Shown: positions 413 through 64,000 of the stretch, piece by piece
How the letters are laid out: each line of letters begins with the position of its first letter
How positions within the stretch are numbered: position 1 is the stretch's first letter
Source: Parashewanella spongiae
Lineage (GTDB): Bacteria; Pseudomonadota; Gammaproteobacteria; Enterobacterales; Shewanellaceae
DNA length: 64,000 bases
Assembly (NCBI RefSeq): GCF_004358345.1
Contig: NZ_CP037952.1
Location: 2,356,001 to 2,420,000, forward strand
Direction of reading: 5' to 3'
The notes under the pieces: generated by a model
Seen by the model: only the letters and a program-made list of their open reading frames with translations
What the model was told of the DNA's origin: nothing
Databases searched by the model: none
Made by a program: the position numbers and the translations under genes

Positions 413-773
413 TACCAATTACAGTCTTTAACCTCTCACTCAGCAAGAGCTAAAGGATTTCAGTGCAAGGCACAAGCTCGAAATACTATATTCCCTACGG
501 CTGCCATACAAAGCTGGCATTCAACGCACTTAGTGCTTTTGTTGGGATAATTCAAGTGCTTGTAGCGCAGTAATGTAACTCTTTAGTCTTGCCCTTCGGG
601 AGCTTGTATGTGCTCACTTTGGTTTATAAAGAATACTTCTCAAAACAGTCTTGACGTAGCAATGTAATAACGACAGCTTTGTATGTCGGTAACAACTATG
701 CCTTCATCAACTTCATTTGCACTTTGAGCACATACATAGCTCTGAGTTGAGCATTTAATTACTGTAATTGGTA
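413..773. repeat. Family-A miniature inverted-repeat element, copy A1
   Basis: Bounded by TACCAATTACAGT and its inverse complement ACTGTAATTGGTA. It has no coding capacity. It holds the shared hairpin module (671-688, one base changed). Other family-A copies are at 10272-10565, 42235-42515 and 62685-63075. This copy is longer than A2 because it retains an internal segment that A2 lacks. The flanks (TTA and TTG) do not form a clean duplication. It fills most of the gap between the acetyltransferase and the regulator gene. Confidence 0.75.
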
Positions 774-5788: not shown

Positions 5789-6067
5789 ATGGCCAGAGCA
5801 TGCGCTCGTCATATTTTAGTAAAGACGAAACAAGAAGCTGAAAAGCTGATGAAACAGCTTGAGAAAGGGGCTGACTTCGGCAAGCTTGCTAAGCAGTATT
5901 CGACTTGTCCATCAAAAAAGCGTTTCGGGGATTTAGGTGAGTTTGGGCAGGGTGATATGGTCAAAGCATTTGATGATGTTGTGTTTAAAAAGCCAGTATT
6001 AGAAATTCACGGTCCGGTAAAAACAAAATTCGGATTTCATATTATCCAAACTGTTTACCGGACTTAG
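5789..6067 (+). CDS. ppiC: Parvulin-type peptidyl-prolyl cis-trans isomerase PpiC
   Basis: Catalyses cis-trans isomerisation of prolyl peptide bonds, probably in the cytoplasm because there is no signal peptide. At 92 residues it is a stand-alone parvulin domain, matching the 93 residues of E. coli PpiC. It has the parvulin opening [12 protein letters not shown], the [15 protein letters not shown] loop and the C-terminal [13 protein letters not shown], including the conserved His and Phe of the active site. GAGG eight bases before the ATG is a good ribosome site. A family-D repeat starts on the base after the stop codon, so the natural terminator, if any, has been displaced. Confidence 0.93.
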
Positions 6068-6562
6068 GAAAGTTGCGGAAGAAAGTATAACGATTAGTTC
6101 TCGTCACTCCAGCGCAGGCAGGAAACGAAGTAACGACAGTTTTGTATATCGCTAGTCTAGGGTCTGTTGATCTTTCAGGGTCAAATTTTGTGCTATTTGA
6201 GCCTTTATCTGTTCAAGGCGTGAGCAGTGATGCTTAGCCATCTAAGTGGGTCACAACACAGAACAGTGAATGCTCAAAAGCATCGAAAAAAGAGAGAGCG
6301 TAAATTGGTCGCTCTTTCTAAATAAAAGGTGCTGCGTTATCGTTTTCTTATTTGGAAACGAAGTAACGACAGTTTTGTATGTCGATAATAACCAAACCTT
6401 ACAAACTCTGCCTTGCATAAAATAACCAATTTATCGCTGCAAAAACAATCACGAAAGATCAACAGACCCTAGTGCCTTTGCTTTTTTCTATAAAAGTCAC
6501 TGGATACCCGCCTTCGCTGGTATGACAATGATTGGTACTTTCTAAATAGCTAGATCCCTTAG
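6068..6562. repeat. Family-D repeat, copy D1, split by a family-E element
   Basis: It matches copy D2 (20082-20265) along its whole length once the inserted element at 6160-6469 and one TA are removed (183 against 184 bases). The outer parts carry imperfect inverted arms (a CACTCCAGCG stretch at the left; CTGGATACCCGCCTTCGCTGG at the right, given here as two overlapping stems). It contains one shared hairpin module at 6134-6151. The same general repeat type recurs in simpler form at 53117-53202. Confidence 0.75.
6160..6469. mobile_element. Family-E miniature element (310 bp) with TA target duplication
   Basis: Perfect terminal inverted repeats begin GGGTCTGTTGATCTTTC and end GAAAGATCAACAGACCC. 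TA at 6158-6159 is repeated at 6470-6471; the uninterrupted copy D2 has a single TA at the matching place, so the boundaries are certain to within the TA. It has no gene. A TA duplication and short perfect termini suggest mobilisation in trans by an IS630/Tc1-type or similar transposase; none is present in the window. It contains a shared hairpin module at 6367-6384. Confidence 0.85.
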
Positions 6563-6567
6563 CAAAT

Positions 6568-7702: not shown

Positions 7703-7941
7703 TTTATCCTAAAAACATCAGTTGAACGCTGAGTATATGAGTAGCTGTTTGAGTCAATAAGATGACTTTATCATCATGGCTTTCACCCAATGAGTGAAGT
7801 GCTCTACGCTCACAAGCTTGCTAAAATGACTGCTATCTGCGTTGTAACTTTTGCAAGTAGAATAACTACTTGCTGCAAGCTACGCCTTACTATCAGCCAT
7901 TTTTTCTACGCTTGAGAACGCAGTCAACTGATGTTTCTAGG
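7703..7941. repeat. Family-B miniature element B1 with its left target duplication
   Basis: The element is 7708-7941; its ends are CCTAAAAACATCAGTTG and the inverse complement of CCTAGAAACATCAGTTG. Left of it is TTTAT (7703-7707). The matching right-hand TTTAT is not adjacent but lies at 9953-9957, beyond the group II intron. A second copy in the opposite orientation is at 42516-42736. It is related to family C, but lacks the hairpin module that family C has between GCAAGTAGAA and CTACTTGC. Confidence 0.8.
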
Positions 7942-8551
7942 GAGCGCCACGAAGCGCTTTATTCTGTTGCGGGATTTGTCTCAACGTATACGCAGCCAAG
8001 CGATTACATGGCCATAAACCAGAGACAGCAACGTTATTATTTATAATAAGTCCATCAGGTTGAAACGTACCTGACGGGATAATTACCAGTTCATCCCGAA
8101 ATCTGACGGGCATGCATAATGGGTAACCGCTATGACATGAAGCCCTGTGACAAAGGCCTTGAATAAAGGTTGAGATGCAATGTAGGCCGCAGCATCAAGC
8201 GAATTCAGTTAAGCGTCGTAAATCAAAAAATGAAGATGGGGAGTCTTTCCTAGTTGACGAACCCTGACACAAACAGAGAAGCAACTGGTAAATGCATCTG
8301 TTTGATCTTCCGGCGTAATATGAAGTGGCATGTATTGAAGGAAATAAAGTGAACGTGGGAGAGCCTGAGTGTTGGAAGGTAGTGACTTGCACTATCCGAA
8401 TATAAGGTAAACCGAAATTTCAGATAGGGCGCTCAGGCAGTCGGATGAGCCCATAGTACCGTTAACCGTGAAGACAACATAACTTTACATCAGGGAAGGG
8501 GCTCAGTGTTACACCCGTTTTTTAACGTAACTTTTGAGGTGAAATTGCCAT

Positions 8552-9832
8552 ATGGCTAACACTCCAGTAAATATCAGAATATTACAGCGAAAACTTTACT
8601 TACGCTCAAAGCTTAACTCGGAGCTTCGATTTTACAGCTTGTACGATAAACTCAGTCGCCTAGATATACTCGAAGAAGCCTATCGACGATGCAAAGCCAA
8701 TAAAGGCGGAGCAGGAATTGATGGCATCACATTCAGTTATCTAGAGCAGCAAAAGAAAGTCGTTGCGCTGTTAAAAGAAATTCAAACTCAATTACAACAG
8801 AAAAACTATCGACCTAGCCCAGTCAAACGAGTAGAAATACTCAAAGACAACGGCAAAACGCGGAAACTTGGGATCCCGATAATCAGTGACAGAATTGTGC
8901 AAATGGCGATGACAATAGTGATGCAACCCGTCTACGAACCTCATTTACATGAACACAGTTATGGTTATCGTCCATGTCGAAACGCCCAGCAAGCGGTAAA
9001 AGTCATTGAAATGAGCCTAAAACAAGGCTATCAGCACGTACTTGATGCTGACTTGAGCGCCTATTTCGATACCATCCCGCACGCTAAGTTGATGGCAAAA
9101 ATAGAAAGGCGAATAAGCGACAGCAGCTTTCTGAGTTTGCTGAAAAGCTTTATCAAAGCGCCCATCAGCGTAGAGACGGTCAACAGAAAATGGCGAATAG
9201 AAGCAAACCGATGTGGCACTCCGCAAGGCGGAGTTATCTCTCCACTACTGGCTAACATCTATCTCAACGATTTCTGTTTGAAAATACACGAAAAAACACC
9301 GTGTAAAATCGTTACCTATGCAGATGATTTTGTTGTACTTCATAAGCAAACCTACACACAAGAGCAACTGGACTGGATAACACAGCAATTAAGTGATGAA
9401 GGTCTGAAGCTAAATCAAAGTAAAACCCACTGTGTGGATATGGGAAAGCTGATGAATGAGTTTGATTTCCTCGGTTTTAACTTTCAACGGATCACAGGCC
9501 TCATCAAAGGCACCAGTTACATCAAGATAGAGGCGTCTAAGAAGAGCCAAACAAAGCTGAAAAATAAAATCAGAGACATAGTGAAACACCGAACCTCAAA
9601 TACACTTGGCGTACTGATAAATAAGGTTAATCAAGTTCTGAGGGGATGGAAACACTATTTTGGTGGGATAGGTTATCCCAGAGGTGTATTTTTCAGAATA
9701 AATGGATTTGTAGTAAACCGGTTCTATCGCTGGCATCGTCGCTTAAGTCAACGTCGAAGCAAGTATCTATCACGAGGTGCTTACGAAAAATTACGCCAAG
9801 CTGGTCTTGAGTATTTACCCACGACAAGATGA
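8552..9832 (+). CDS. ltrA: Group II intron reverse transcriptase/maturase
   Basis: 426 residues. In order: RT0-RT7 fingers/palm with KGGAGIDGITFSYLE, KLGIPIISDRIVQMAM, DADLSAYFDTIPH, GTPQGGVISPLLANIYLNDF and the catalytic YADDFVVL; a maturase X domain ending in GWKHYFGGIGYPRGVF and the basic stretch RFYRWHRRLSQRRSKYLSRG. It ends soon after domain X, with no HNH endonuclease module. Such introns usually insert using DNA structure or replication forks. It would help the intron fold and reverse-transcribe it into DNA. It differs from copy 2 by only a few residues over the shared part (for example KIERR against KVERR), indicating recent spread. Confidence 0.95.
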   Translation: MANTPVNIRILQRKLYLRSKLNSELRFYSLYDKLSRLDILEEAYRRCKANKGGAGIDGITFSYLEQQKKVVALLKEIQTQLQQKNYRPSPVKRVEILKDNGKTRKLGIPIISDRIVQMAMTIVMQPVYEPHLHEHSYGYRPCRNAQQAVKVIEMSLKQGYQHVLDADLSAYFDTIPHAKLMAKIERRISDSSFLSLLKSFIKAPISVETVNRKWRIEANRCGTPQGGVISPLLANIYLNDFCLKIHEKTPCKIVTYADDFVVLHKQTYTQEQLDWITQQLSDEGLKLNQSKTHCVDMGKLMNEFDFLGFNFQRITGLIKGTSYIKIEASKKSQTKLKNKIRDIVKHRTSNTLGVLINKVNQVLRGWKHYFGGIGYPRGVFFRINGFVVNRFYRWHRRLSQRRSKYLSRGAYEKLRQAGLEYLPTTR

Positions 9833-9869
9833 TAAGCAAAGTGAAGGGGCCGAGAGAAGTGTAACAACA

Positions 9870-9903
9870 GAGCCGTGTGAGGGAAAACCTCATGCACGGA
9901 ATC
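9870..9903 (+). ncRNA. Group II intron domain V (catalytic hairpin)
   Basis: The 34-base hairpin starting GAGCCGTGTGAGG with a GAAA loop and ending CACGGAATC is the characteristic domain V. Copy 2 has it as the inverse complement near 63125-63158. A domain VI stem follows up to 9952. Confidence 0.8.
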
Positions 9904-9984
9904 GAAGAGGGGCTGCTGGATAAGCGATAGCGAAGCCAGTAGCCTACTCTACTTTATTAATCGATGCTCTAATTTTTTTACTTG

Positions 9985-10109: not shown

Positions 10110-10604
10110 CCTAAATAAATCAGTTGAACGCACAATTTAACTTTAATTCATTGAAGTTAAATACAAAATTAAGCAACCCTAATTCACCCATCAGGTGAGT
10201 GCTGAACATTCATATACTTGCCAAAATCACCGCTAGCTGTGTTCTAAATTTTGGAAGTAGAAACGAAGTAATACCAATTACAGTAATTAACTTCCCACTC
10301 AGCAAGAGCCAAAGGATTTCAGTACAAGACGCAAGTTTGAAGTGCTATCGGGATAATTCAAAAACTTGTAACGTAGTAATGGAATTCTTTAGCCTTGCCC
10401 TTCGGGAGCTTGTATGTGTTCAAATTACTACGCAAAATTGTCTCAACGTAGCAATGTAATAACGACAGTTTTGTATGTCGGTCATAACTATGTCTTCATC
10501 AATTTCACTTGTACTTTGAACACATACATAGCTCTGAGCTGGGAATTTAATTACTGTAATTGGTATAACGACAGTTTTGTATGTCGGTAACCACTACTTG
10601 TTGC
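10110..10604. repeat. Family-C element C1, split by family-A element A2 and truncated at the right
   Basis: The left end CCTAAATAAATCAGTTGAAC matches C2 (58916-59177). Similarity continues through TTCACCCATCAGGTGAGTG to the hairpin module, is interrupted at 10269 by A2, and resumes with CGACAG at 10569. It is lost after about 10604, so the right terminus has been deleted or has diverged. Confidence 0.7.
10272..10565. mobile_element. Family-A miniature element A2 (294 bp) with TAA duplication, inserted in C1
   Basis: Termini TACCAATTACAGTAATTAA and the inverse complement. TAA at 10269-10271 is repeated at 10566-10568. Removing the element and one TAA restores GAAGTAACGACAG, the sequence found uninterrupted in the D and E families. 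It contains a hairpin module at 10463-10480. It has no coding capacity. Confidence 0.8.
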
Positions 10605-19721: not shown

Positions 19722-20309
19722 ATTTAGCCCAAATGATTTTGTAAAAATTGATAGTTAAGCTCATAATCATGCGATATGCAGTGTTACTGCCTGATTTTGA
19801 GTATATGTGTCTGATTTACCTAGTTCAACAAACTAATCTATTTATTACTTTGATAAAACACTTTTATACGTAACTACAACTTTTAAGGTGAGTAAGGCGA
19901 TAGCATTCAGACCTTAAAAATGATGGTTTCATTTACCTTAAGTTGCACTTAAAATAATTAGTTACTTTCTACTACCGATGTTGTAGTGTTGGGTCAAATT
20001 TAGTCTGTTTTTTATATAGTTATCAAAGTGTAGCATGAGTTGCTAACTAAGCTGGCTCATTACAATATTATATCCAGCTTTGGAAAGTTGCGAAAGAAAG
20101 TATACCGATGAGTTCTCGTCACTCCAGCGCAGGCTGGAAACGAAGTAACGACAGTTTTGTATGTCGGTAGTCTAGTGCCTTTGCTTTTTTCTATAAAAGC
20201 CACTGGATACCAGCCTTCGCTGGTATGACAAAGATTGGTACTTTCTAAATCGCTAGATCCCTTAGTATATGCAATTCTTTTTGCTCAATCTTTTCTTTGA
20301 CGGCAAAAT
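19722..20309. other. Intergenic region upstream of recC holding repeat D2
   Basis: Between 19722 and 20081 I see only A+T-rich non-coding sequence that should hold the recC promoter. Repeat D2 occupies 20082-20265. Confidence 0.5.
20082..20265. repeat. Family-D repeat, copy D2 (uninterrupted)
   Basis: 184 bases starting GGAAAGTTGCGAAAG and ending TAGATCCCTTAG. Near-identical to D1, but without the family-E insertion, so it supplies the empty site (TAGTCTAGTGCC) proving the TA duplication there. Hairpin module at 20149-20166. Internal stems include CCAGCGCAGGCTGG and CCAGCCTTCGCTGG. Confidence 0.75.
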
Positions 20310-42239: not shown

Positions 42240-42515
42240 TTACAGTAATTAAATTCCCAGCTCAGAGCTATGTATGTGTTCAAAGTACAAGTGAAATTGA
42301 TGAAGACATAGTTATTACCGACATACAAAACTGTCGTTATTACATTGCTACGTTGAGACAGCTTTGCGTAGTGATTTGGACACATACAAGCTCCCGAAGG
42401 GCAAGGCTAAAGGATTTCATTACTACGTTACAAGTTTTTGATTTATCCCGACAAAAGCACGAAGTGCGTTGAACGCCAGCTTTGTATGGCGGCCGTAGGG
42501 AATATAGTACTTCAA
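42235..42515. repeat. Family-A element A3, right end lost
   Basis: It starts TACCAATTACAGTAATTAA and carries the hairpin module as its inverse complement (42319-42336). It is cut at TTCAA (42511-42515), where element B2 begins; the remainder of A3 is absent beyond B2, so a deletion followed the insertion. Confidence 0.7.
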
Positions 42516-42736
42516 CCTAGAAACATCAGTTAACTGCGCTCTCAAGCGTAGAAAAAATGGCTGATAGTAAGGCGTAGCTTGCAGCAAGTAGTTATTCTAC
42601 TTGCAAAAGTTACAACGCAGATAGCAACCATTTTAGCAAGCTTGTGAGCGTAGAGCACTTCACTCATTGAGTGAATGATAAAGTCATCTTATTGACTCAA
42701 ACAGTTACTCATATACTTAGCGTTCAACTGATGTTA
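42516..42736. repeat. Family-B element B2, inserted in A3
   Basis: It starts CCTAGAAACATCAGTTAAC directly after TTCAA and matches B1 in reverse orientation to CAACTGATGTT at 42736, where it stops about seven bases short of its expected end. The missing end and missing A3 remainder point to one deletion. Confidence 0.7.
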
Positions 42737-58915: not shown

Positions 58916-59177
58916 TCTAATTAAATCAGTTGAACGCATAGTTTAAATTTAATTTATTGAAATTAAATACAAAATTAAACAACCCGAATTCACCTATCAG
59001 GTGAATGCTGAACATTCATATACTTGCCAAAATCACCGCTAACTGCGTTACAAATTTTGCAAGTAGAAACGAAGTAATGACAGTTTTGTATTTCGGTAAC
59101 CACTACCTGCTGCTATTCATACCTTGCTATCAGTAATTTTTTCTGCGTATATGAACGCTCCAACCGATTTATTTAGG
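58916..59177. repeat. Family-C element C2 (262 bp), full-length, with TTTAA duplication
   Basis: Left end TCTAATTAAATCAGTTGAAC, right end the inverse complement of CCTAAATAAATCGGTTGG. TTTAA is repeated at about 58911-58915 and 59178-59182. It contains a degenerate hairpin module (59078-59095, TGACA and TTTCG arms). The right end is six bases from the deaminase stop codon. Confidence 0.75.
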
Positions 59178-62684: not shown

Positions 62685-63075
62685 CACCAATTACAGTAAT
62701 TAAATGCTTAACTCAGAGCTAGGTATGCGCACAAAGTACAAACGAAATTGGTGTAAACATAGTTATTACCGACATACAAAACTGTCGTTATTACATTGCT
62801 ACGTTGAGACAATTTTGTGAAGTATTCTTTATAAACCAAAGTGTGCGCATACAACTGACATTGAACACATCTATTAAAAAACCAAAATTAATGAATAGTA
62901 ACTCATCTTTGCGTTGTGAAAATGTTCATATCGGTTAATTTAAAGTAAAACATAGATAAAAAGTGATTTCTTATTCAACCTTAACCACATAACTATTTCG
63001 TGTGCGCAATGTCAGATACAAGCTCCCGAAGTGCAAGGCTAAAGGTTTCCATTACTGCGTTGCACCTTCTTGAAG
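62685..63075. repeat. Family-A element A4, split by element F and cut by the intron
   Basis: The left end is mutated (CACCAATTACAGTAATTAA). The hairpin module is at 62770-62787 as inverse complement. Family-A sequence is interrupted at 62855-63015 and resumes with GCTCCCGAAG, then stops at TTGAA (63071-63075), the 3' flank of intron copy 2. The rest of A4 should lie beyond the window on the far side of the intron. Confidence 0.7.
62855..63015. mobile_element. Family-F miniature element (161 bp) with 6-bp duplication, inserted in A4
   Basis: Terminal repeats CTGACATTG and CAATGTCAG are perfect; CACA follows two bases further inward at both ends. ATACAA is repeated at 62849-62854 and 63016-63021; removing the element and one copy restores GCATACAAGCTCCC, the family-A sequence. 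No gene. This is the only copy in the window. Confidence 0.82.
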
Positions 63076-64000
63076 TAGAGTAGGCTACTGGCTTCGCTAT
63101 CGCTTATCCAGCAGCCCCTCTTCGATTCCGTGCATGAGGTTTTCCCTCACACGGCTCTGTTGTTACACTTCTCTCAGCCCCTTCACTTTGCTTATCATCT
63201 TGTCGTGGGTAAATACTCAAGACCAGCTTGGCGTAATTTTTCGTAAGCACCTCGTGATAGATACTTGCTTCGACGTTGACTTAAGCGACGATGCCAGCGA
63301 TAGAACCGGTTTACTACAAATCCATTTATTCTGAAAAATACACCTCTGGGATAACCTATCCCACCAAAATAGTGTTTCCATCCCCTCAGAACTTGATTAA
63401 CCTTATTTATCAGTACGCCAAGTGTATTTGAGGTTCGGTGTTTCACTATGTCTCTGATTTTATTTTTCAGCTTTGTTTGGCTCTTCTTAGACGCCTCTAT
63501 CTTGATGTAACTGGTGCCTTTGATGAGGCCTGTGATCCGTTGAAAGTTAAAACCGAGGAAATCAAACTCATTCATCAGCTTTCCCATATCCACACAGTGG
63601 GTTTTACTTTGATTTAGCTTCAGACCTTCATCACTTAATTGCTGTGTTATCCAGTCCAGTTGCTCTTGTGTGTAGGTTTGCTTATGAAGTACAACAAAAT
63701 CATCTGCATAGGTAACGATTTTACACGGTGTTTTTTCGTGTATTTTCAAACAGAAATCGTTGAGATAGATGTTAGCCAGTAGTGGAGAGATAACTCCGCC
63801 TTGCGGAGTGCCACATCGGCTTGCTTCTATTCGCCATTTCCCGTTGACCGTCTCTATGCTGATGGGCGCTTTGATAAAGCTTTTCAGCAAACTCAGAAAG
63901 CTGCTGTCGCTTATTCGCCTTTCTACTTTTGCCATCAACTTAGCGTGCGGGATGGTATCGAAATAGGCGCTCAAGTCAGCATCAAGTACGTGCTGATAGC
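63076..64000 (-). mobile_element. Group II intron, copy 2 (3' part; 5' part outside window)
   Basis: Read on the minus strand it ends with the same domain V (about 63125-63158), domain VI and CTCTAC end as copy 1. It is inserted in A4, with TTGAA (TTCAA in intron orientation) directly after its 3' end. Nearly identical to copy 1 over the shared length. Confidence 0.85.
63195..64000 (-). CDS. ltrA: Group II intron reverse transcriptase/maturase, copy 2 (5' part outside window)
   Basis: The frame is open to the window edge; at least 268 C-terminal residues are visible, with the DLSAYFDTIPH palm region at the edge, GTPQGGVISPLLANIYLNDF, YADDFVVLHK and the same maturase end as copy 1. Differences from copy 1 include KVERR for KIERR, ISIETVNGKW for ISVETVNRKW and EASRC for EANRC. 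No frameshift is seen. Confidence 0.92.
   Translation of the reverse strand, partial: YQHVLDADLSAYFDTIPHAKLMAKVERRISDSSFLSLLKSFIKAPISIETVNGKWRIEASRCGTPQGGVISPLLANIYLNDFCLKIHEKTPCKIVTYADDFVVLHKQTYTQEQLDWITQQLSDEGLKLNQSKTHCVDMGKLMNEFDFLGFNFQRITGLIKGTSYIKIEASKKSQTKLKNKIRDIVKHRTSNTLGVLINKVNQVLRGWKHYFGGIGYPRGVFFRINGFVVNRFYRWHRRLSQRRSKYLSRGAYEKLRQAGLEYLPTTR

Follow-up and report, generated by a model that had tools for sequence, protein, structure and literature searches.

The short hairpin that recurs in several repeat families of Parashewanella spongiae is part of a 31-bp unit, which is real, is sharply bounded and is inserted in many unrelated repeats. The presence and absence of this unit suggest that the hairpin module probably belongs to a non-autonomous, REP-like mobile unit (probability about 0.75). 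Within the range searched, the unit is apparently peculiar to the genus Parashewanella. An earlier note on this DNA considered the module as a mobile unit, as a binding or recombination site, or as a functional hairpin. Its interpretation as a whole is supported, and the three alternatives are narrowed, though not fully separated, in that a small unit gained repeatedly fits best.

The window, which is the whole stretch of 64,000 nucleotides analysed here, contains 10 matches to the hairpin 18-mer CGACAGTTTTGTATGTCG at up to 3 mismatches, as compared with 0.03 expected from shuffles, and none of 100 shuffles reaches 10. All nine places reported previously are borne out with 0–2 mismatches, and the tenth, at 42474–42491 on the plus strand, has 3. 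The 18-mer is the hairpin part of a unit such as AAACGAAGTAA-CGACA-GTTTTGTA-TGTCG-GT, in which 11 bases before the hairpin, the 18-base hairpin (stem of 5 pairs, loop of 8 bases) and 2 bases after it make up 31 bp. The sequence GAAACGAAGTAA, which was said to be common to families C, D and E, is indeed shared by them.

In the window, family A elements carry units of the CAATG type at 660..690 on the plus strand (hairpin 671–688), where empty A copies share the junction, and on the minus strand at 42317..42347 (hairpin 42319–42336) and 62768..62798 (hairpin 62770–62787). Family D elements carry plus-strand units at 20138..20168 (hairpin 20149–20166), for which an empty D junction with 0 mismatches exists, and at 6123..6153 (hairpin 6134–6151), where a family E element interrupts the D element just to the right of the unit. 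This E element carries a plus-strand unit of its own at 6356..6386 (hairpin 6367–6384). At 6063–6567, the family E element, with ends GGTCTGTTGATCTTTC, lies within the family D element with CTAG on each side and holds the hairpin at 6367. A family C element carries a plus-strand unit at 59067..59097 (hairpin 59078–59095, 2 mismatches). The unit of another family C copy is cut into a left piece at 10261..10270 and a right piece at 10568..10588 (hairpin 10569–10586), both on the plus strand, by a family A element at about 10271–10567, which has ends of the ATACCAATTACAG type, is bordered by TA on both sides and contains its own plus-strand unit at 10452..10482 (hairpin 10463–10480). The hairpins at 10463 and 10569 therefore belong to two units, because the family A element is lodged within the family C unit. 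A C copy at L054 also has its unit interrupted, between about 941 and 3704; the inserted DNA measures about 2.7 kb and is accompanied by a duplication of about 10 bases (AAGTAACGAC). Family B lacks the module, as reported before, and the empty site that corresponds to the insertion point in family C, GCAAGTAG^AATAACTACTTGC, is located at 7860..7861 in one family B copy and at 42596..42597 in a second one on the minus strand.

The genome-wide search that had been proposed for the 18-mer at up to 2 mismatches gives 578 copies in 5,468,749 bases (299 on one strand and 279 on the other), a total that takes in some copies of a related second hairpin of family A, and 0 copies for the reversed control. 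A 28-base form that includes the 5' arm has 523 genome copies at up to 3 mismatches. At up to 1 mismatch, the 18-mer is present in all five Parashewanella genomes (476, 38, 19, 14 and 9 copies) and in none of the remaining 147 genomes of the family. The 28-base form is found in one of 394 genomes drawn from the order, which is the window's own, the genus genomes G001–G004 lying outside this draw. A scan of named genomes, which may omit records of the window's own genome, gives 37 stretches, of which Parashewanella curva, P. hymeniacidonis and 'Shewanella sp. OPT22' account for 33. The other four, exact 18-mers in unrelated bacteria, are rejected as units because the 5' arm is missing. A viral contig collection contains 0 matches, and neither the 16-base core nor the complement of this core occurs in the literature searched.

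The own genome was sampled as 40 stretches of 20 kb and the window (864 kb, about 16% of the genome), and the four relatives were sampled as 60 stretches of 20 kb and 40 short loci. The sampled stretches were picked partly around plus-strand matches, so that a replication-strand bias cannot be read firmly. A longer parent element is rejected: in the 864 kb of the own genome, the left half of the unit is found without the rest in 4 of 92 matches (a decayed copy, a unit that an insertion has split and two chance-like matches), the right half is found without the rest in 0 of 130 matches, and no larger form is seen. Long tandem coding-like repeats with TTCAGCGCAGGCCGTCAGCAAATT-type motifs at a spacing of about 250 bases are present at L038, L043, L048 and L056.

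When the unit is excised and its flanks are joined, the resulting sequence is found elsewhere for 141 of 183 units at up to 5 mismatches of 28, part of these being false because they are shifted filled copies. Empty junctions with 0 mismatches are TTGTCTTGACGTAG^AACAACTATGTCTT for family A, AATTTTGCAAGTAG^AACCACTACTTGCT for family C, CCAGCGCAGGCTGG^AGTCTAGTGCCTTT for family D, GCTTGCTTATTTGG^AATACCAAACCGCA for family E and GTTTGTTTATGTAG^AATAACTACACAGC for a relative of family E in P. curva. When 60-base flanks are aligned, a junction-spanning match with at most 3 gapped positions is obtained for 161 of 244 distinct hits, the other 83 being without one. After 17 of the 244 are dropped for failing the unit core, 227 accepted units remain, which fall into 35 flank classes in the sampled DNA of the five genomes; these classes include chimeras, copies cut by other insertions and two classes (46 entries) for the second hairpin of family A. 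Thus, families A, C, D and E are hosts as proposed in the earlier note, but they are not the only four.

Empty relatives that differ by the unit alone are found in 15 of the 35 flank classes (C0, C2–C8, C10, C12, C27 and C29–C32). Clean empty copies, the lack of which had been named as an argument against an insert, therefore exist not only for A, C, D and E but also for 11 other classes. The best identity between filled and empty copies is 99% for C2 and C4, 97–98% for C0 (with one gapped position at the junction), C3, C5 and C6, 92% for C7, C8 and C12, 90% for C31, 84–88% for C10, C29, C30 and C32, and 80% for C27, the alignments of C10, C27, C29, C30 and C32 being below 88% identity or short. 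Classes C9, C15, C17, C20, C21 and C26 are aligned but uncounted, their alignments appearing one-sided, chimeric, short or gapped. In the own-genome sample, family A gives 18 filled copies with 31 bases and 7 empty copies (6 of them one base short), and family C/B gives 17 filled copies with 31 bases and 31 empty copies. Family D gives 18 copies with 31 bases, 2 with 30, 1 with 29, 4 empty copies and 3 odd inserts (7, 17 and 28), and family E gives 10 copies with 32 bases, 2 with 31 and 8 empty copies, its reference being one base short on the right. These counts exclude 3, 22, 17 and 1 left flanks for which no usable right flank was available. The empty-site joins and the insert lengths indicate that the module is a discrete insert, as had been claimed, but of 31 bp rather than 28–30 bases.

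No target duplication is found at the 15 classes of junction, where L-unit-R matches L-R. In 19 empty contexts, which were chosen by the author from the flank classes and from four further relatives and are not all independent, G precedes the site in 13, T in 3, C in 2 and A in 1, and the site is followed by A in 16 and by G in 3. Filled copies mostly have A or C as their first base on the right, and the one or two bases there often do not agree with those of the empty relative. The edge of the unit is therefore not perfectly defined, and these differences may reflect either edge conversion or one or two more bases that are part of the unit. The site lies at the 5' edge of a predicted loop in seven or eight of the 19 contexts; targeting of palindrome centres as a rule is rejected as not significant (median fraction 0.40, with 3 of 19 contexts at or below 0.2). 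The P. curva element L087 carries three units at three sites, with empty relatives for each of them. Insertion at a gene end in P. curva (L167) is rejected, since the homologues are just 42–48% identical and the ends could not be placed, and no empty counterpart is found for a join between two repeats that two of the genomes share (L180/L184).

The representative flanks of families A, C, D and E have no homology running through the unit, such as would be expected if the four families were alike along their length. The sole match between families with an E-value below 0.05 is one of 20 bases between A and E, which starts 66 bases (A) and 83 bases (E) to the right of the unit. Families A, B/C and E and flank class C5 have a common layout, in which the site lies at the 5' edge of a loop, often AATAA, so that they do not all necessarily represent separate gains. 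The contexts D/F/C27, C6/C29, C7, C8, C12, C30, C31 and C32 are without this layout, and about nine unrelated host settings remain by our judgement. The central stem of family E itself changes pairwise among copies and species (TTTGG/CCAAA, TGTAG/CTACA and TGTGG/CCACA, around an AATAA-like loop), as seen in the own genome and in P. curva (L190, L179 and L046).

Loops like GTTTTGTA (one mismatch) are closed by at least 4 pairs in 164 of 1433 cases, as compared with 13 of 1266, 9 of 1501, 6 of 1066 and 1 of 933 for four permuted-loop controls. The stem covariation check proposed earlier yields several paired variants. CGCCA/TGGCG occurs 37 times in the sample, almost always in the second hairpin of family A, which is located in the window at 42474..42491 (plus strand), has a loop of like kind and is not an insert with known empty sites; a full unit with this stem is present in P. 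curva (L205 435). CGTCA/TGACG is found at L189, and TGCCA/TGGCA, with the outer pair changed jointly, in the second hairpin of another family A copy at window position 502..519 (minus strand). The compensated changes affect two of the five pairs. The second hairpin is inverted relative to the unit, at a distance of 152–166 bases, in 27 of 50 unit/second-hairpin pairs within 300 bp. In 44 family A copies with both anchors, its place is constantly occupied by 50–52 bases, and the hairpin is present in the one example inspected for each spacing. It is absent from the family A copy at 10271–10567. No Rfam family is found at the units at gathering score, and one sub-threshold match, WsnRNA46 (E 0.052), lies over a D element. 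The covariation, together with the low diversity of the unit described below, suggests that the hairpin is also a recognised structure.

Among filled copies, the ratio of the mean pairwise difference in the unit to that in the flanks is 0.45 for family A (bootstrap 0.24–0.77), 0.36 for C (0.11–0.91), 0.30 for D (0.19–0.44) and 0.07 for E (0.00–0.22). Because a copy is counted as filled only when its module is recognisable, these values are biased, to an extent judged small from the few odd inserts. None of 86 18-base flank windows is as uniform as the hairpin in families C, D and E; in family A, 24 of 86 match its uniformity, and the loop is variable (0.17). In the 31 empty C/B copies, the 12 bases on each side of the site differ by 0.02 and 0.04, as compared with 0.065–0.068 further out, and directly beside the site the uniformity is about that of the unit. 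The case for low unit diversity is weaker in A and C.

On the C/B tree, the filled and empty states are strongly clustered, with 3 state changes, a number as low as which none of 500 shuffles gives. The filled clade contains two empty copies, one of them 0.5% from a filled copy, which indicates an exact loss or a further gain. The weakly supported D tree has 6 state changes, as compared with a shuffled mean of 6.4, and 241 of 500 shuffles are as low; families A and E have 5 and 4 changes respectively, given without a shuffle comparison. When 145 units are classified by their flanks, 117 have both flanks from A, C, D or E, 1 belongs to F and 5 have two unnamed flanks. Five join two named families exactly at the unit (A-D twice, D-E, E-D and C-D), and 17 have a named flank on one side and an unnamed one on the other, in several cases through later insertions. 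At L040 4403, an inverted D is joined to C with the break within the stem. These joins show that the unit also recombines. The own-genome sample contains 148 units, among which 27 neighbour pairs lie within less than 400 bp in mixed orientations.

Matches to the Y1 transposase family (PF01797) are present in all five genus genomes, the only one in G003 having an internal stop. The unit is found at up to 2 mismatches in 2 of 30 Y1 loci (3 kb each, within about 1.5 kb), and the ends of six Parashewanella Y1 elements, compared by eye, do not resemble it. The cut-off of the RAYT model NF047646 is reached in none of the five genomes. RAYT-like HUH proteins of about 330–350 aa, with weak matches to the RAYT and Y1 models, are present in G001–G004, i.e. 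four of the five (genes at L143 1087–2079 and L150 1108–2160; loci L151–L157), and the gene is absent from G000, the genome with the most units. At up to 4 mismatches, the unit is found in none of ten loci examined, five of which hold RAYT-like genes; the flanks of two genes were also read. No mobilising enzyme was identified, and none of the Y1 and RAYT-like genes examined has the unit at its flanks. Two units at L166 enclose, as read by eye, a 941-aa ORF and an acetyltransferase-like ORF and no transposase. A group II intron was considered and rejected: the L048 copy ends in a D element outside the unit, and two window copies end elsewhere. The latter, at 9027–9954 and 63073–64000, contain a reverse transcriptase/maturase and are 99% alike over 928 bases; Rfam matches to group II introns in the window are located at 8053–8197, 9868–9952 and 63075–63159.

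The reading as a mobile unit is drawn from the 15 classes of filled and empty sites, the non-homologous flanks, the lack of target duplication, the restriction to one genus and the compensated stem changes, and also from the three units in L087, the G^A bias of the sites, the empty C copy 0.5% from a filled one, the low unit diversity and the Y1 genes in all five genomes. The clustering of states on the C/B tree, as under one gain, is a counterweight to it, as are the absence of the unit from the ends of the enzyme genes examined, the lack of the RAYT-like gene in the unit-richest genome, the loop layout common to A, B/C, E and C5, the imperfectly defined edge, the palindrome-centre result and the uniform flanking bases in A and in the empty C/B copies. 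If the unit is mobile, it would have entered several unrelated repeat families at RG^AA-like points without target duplication, and most copies in the own genome would then have multiplied as passengers of their host repeats. A trans-acting HUH (Y1-type) enzyme might recognise the hairpin together with the adjoining [GA]TAA in single-stranded DNA and join the excised unit 3' of a G; given mobility, we propose this mechanism only tentatively. It is conceivable, but rather doubtful, that a lone 31-base hairpin is a complete transposition substrate, which is excised and joined as single-stranded DNA by an enzyme other than a classical RAYT, without paired ends, and which enters the exposed DNA of other mobile repeats and alters their edge bases. 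Such a unit would be a parasite of parasites, smaller than any MITE.

The main rival to the mobile unit is a single origin without transposition, followed by spread among the repeats by recombination or template switching, for which the hairpin, short edge matches such as GAA/AA and hundreds of donor copies would provide the means. The exact joins of two named families at 5 of 145 units, those of named to unnamed flanks, the inverted join within the stem at L040 4403, the unclustered D labels on a weak tree and the edge bases that often differ between filled and empty copies all point this way, and the low unit diversity is compatible with gene conversion. Template switching is expected to give varied ends, whereas an identical 31 bp with two constant ends stands beside dissimilar flanks, and we regard this explanation as possible but the less probable one. 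Paired stem changes and low diversity would also be expected of a functional hairpin, an RNA or DNA signal or a protein site, that is selected and was inherited from a common ancestor of the hosts, the empty copies being losses; the AATAA-like loop at the site in A, B/C, E and C5 is consistent with such descent. This explanation is improbable, because A, C, D and E lack homology through the unit, the contexts D, F, C6, C7, C8, C12, C30, C31 and C32 lack the loop layout, each of the three sites in L087 has empty relatives and no Rfam family matches. Least probable, and very much so, is an ordinary REP moved by a RAYT. Its size, copy number, tetranucleotide beside the hairpin and genus restriction fit, as do the RAYT-like proteins in four of the five genomes, but the tag is mostly GTAA or ATAA, with a stem of 5 and a loop of 8, instead of the GTAG/GTGG, stem of 7–20 and loop of 2–5 of the published definition (PMC6006769). 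Moreover, the unit is not near the RAYT-like genes, the unit-richest genome lacks the gene and no genome reaches the NF047646 cut-off.

If the 31-bp unit moves by itself, it would set a very small lower size limit for bacterial transposable DNA and would contradict the view taken in REPIN work that single short hairpins are immobile. It would also form a second layer of mobility, spreading mainly inside other mobile repeats and acting as a site at which these are joined. With sharp edges, natural empty sites and five related genomes in which it occurs, the unit makes the spread of REP-like hairpins directly testable.

The statement that no element of this form had been described is too strong, because REPs/REPINs and the GC clusters of yeast mitochondria are close in kind. 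The host families A–F are MITEs, which are non-autonomous dispersed repeats like the unit; the unit differs from them in having no terminal inverted repeats (ends AAACG.. and ..CGGT) and no target duplication, and in being an insert within MITEs. IS200/IS605 elements insert without target duplication beside a short motif, are recognised through hairpins and excise exactly; they have two end hairpins and are far longer than 31 bp. The unit shares the lack of target duplication with a derivative of such elements, but the ends of the six resident Y1 elements, judged by eye, differ from it. REPs and REPINs are described as hairpin repeats of 20–40 bp that reach hundreds of copies, do not extend beyond a species or genus, are often intergenic and are believed to be mobilised in trans by a Y1 HUH enzyme (PMC3733652, PMC3116915). 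The unit is similar in being a small, genus-limited hairpin repeat with hundreds of copies. It differs in tag, stem and loop, in having no adjoining RAYT, and in being mostly single and inside other repeats. As defined for the GTAG type, the tag lies 0–2 nt 5' of the hairpin, the stem and loop lengths quoted above applying to the short hairpin (PMC6006769), and most units have [GA]TAA in place of this tag. The CGTC type is described with an unpaired CGTC (or TGTC, CCTC) tag, a stem of 8–9 and a loop of 4–5 (PMC3733652), which the stem of 5 and loop of 8 do not match. A RAYT gene flanked by the repeat is not seen in the loci examined. REPINs are inverted hairpin pairs that form one mobile unit, single REPs being regarded as immobile remnants (PMC3116915), whereas neighbouring units lie in mixed orientations and the second hairpin of family A, which is inverted to the unit, is a different hairpin. 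The GC clusters of yeast mitochondria (e.g. GC42) and fungal double-hairpin elements are described as palindromic, 32–42 nt long and present or absent at homologous sites; altered bases beside the insert are read as co-conversion, and the clusters merge and shuffle by a mechanism reported as unknown (PMC4478555). Unlike the unit, they reside in organelle genomes, are GC-rich and have AG target nucleotides, with two sets in their footprints (PMC4478555). In the manner of insertion, to which the comparison is confined, the unit resembles these clusters through presence and absence, changes of the edge bases and joining.
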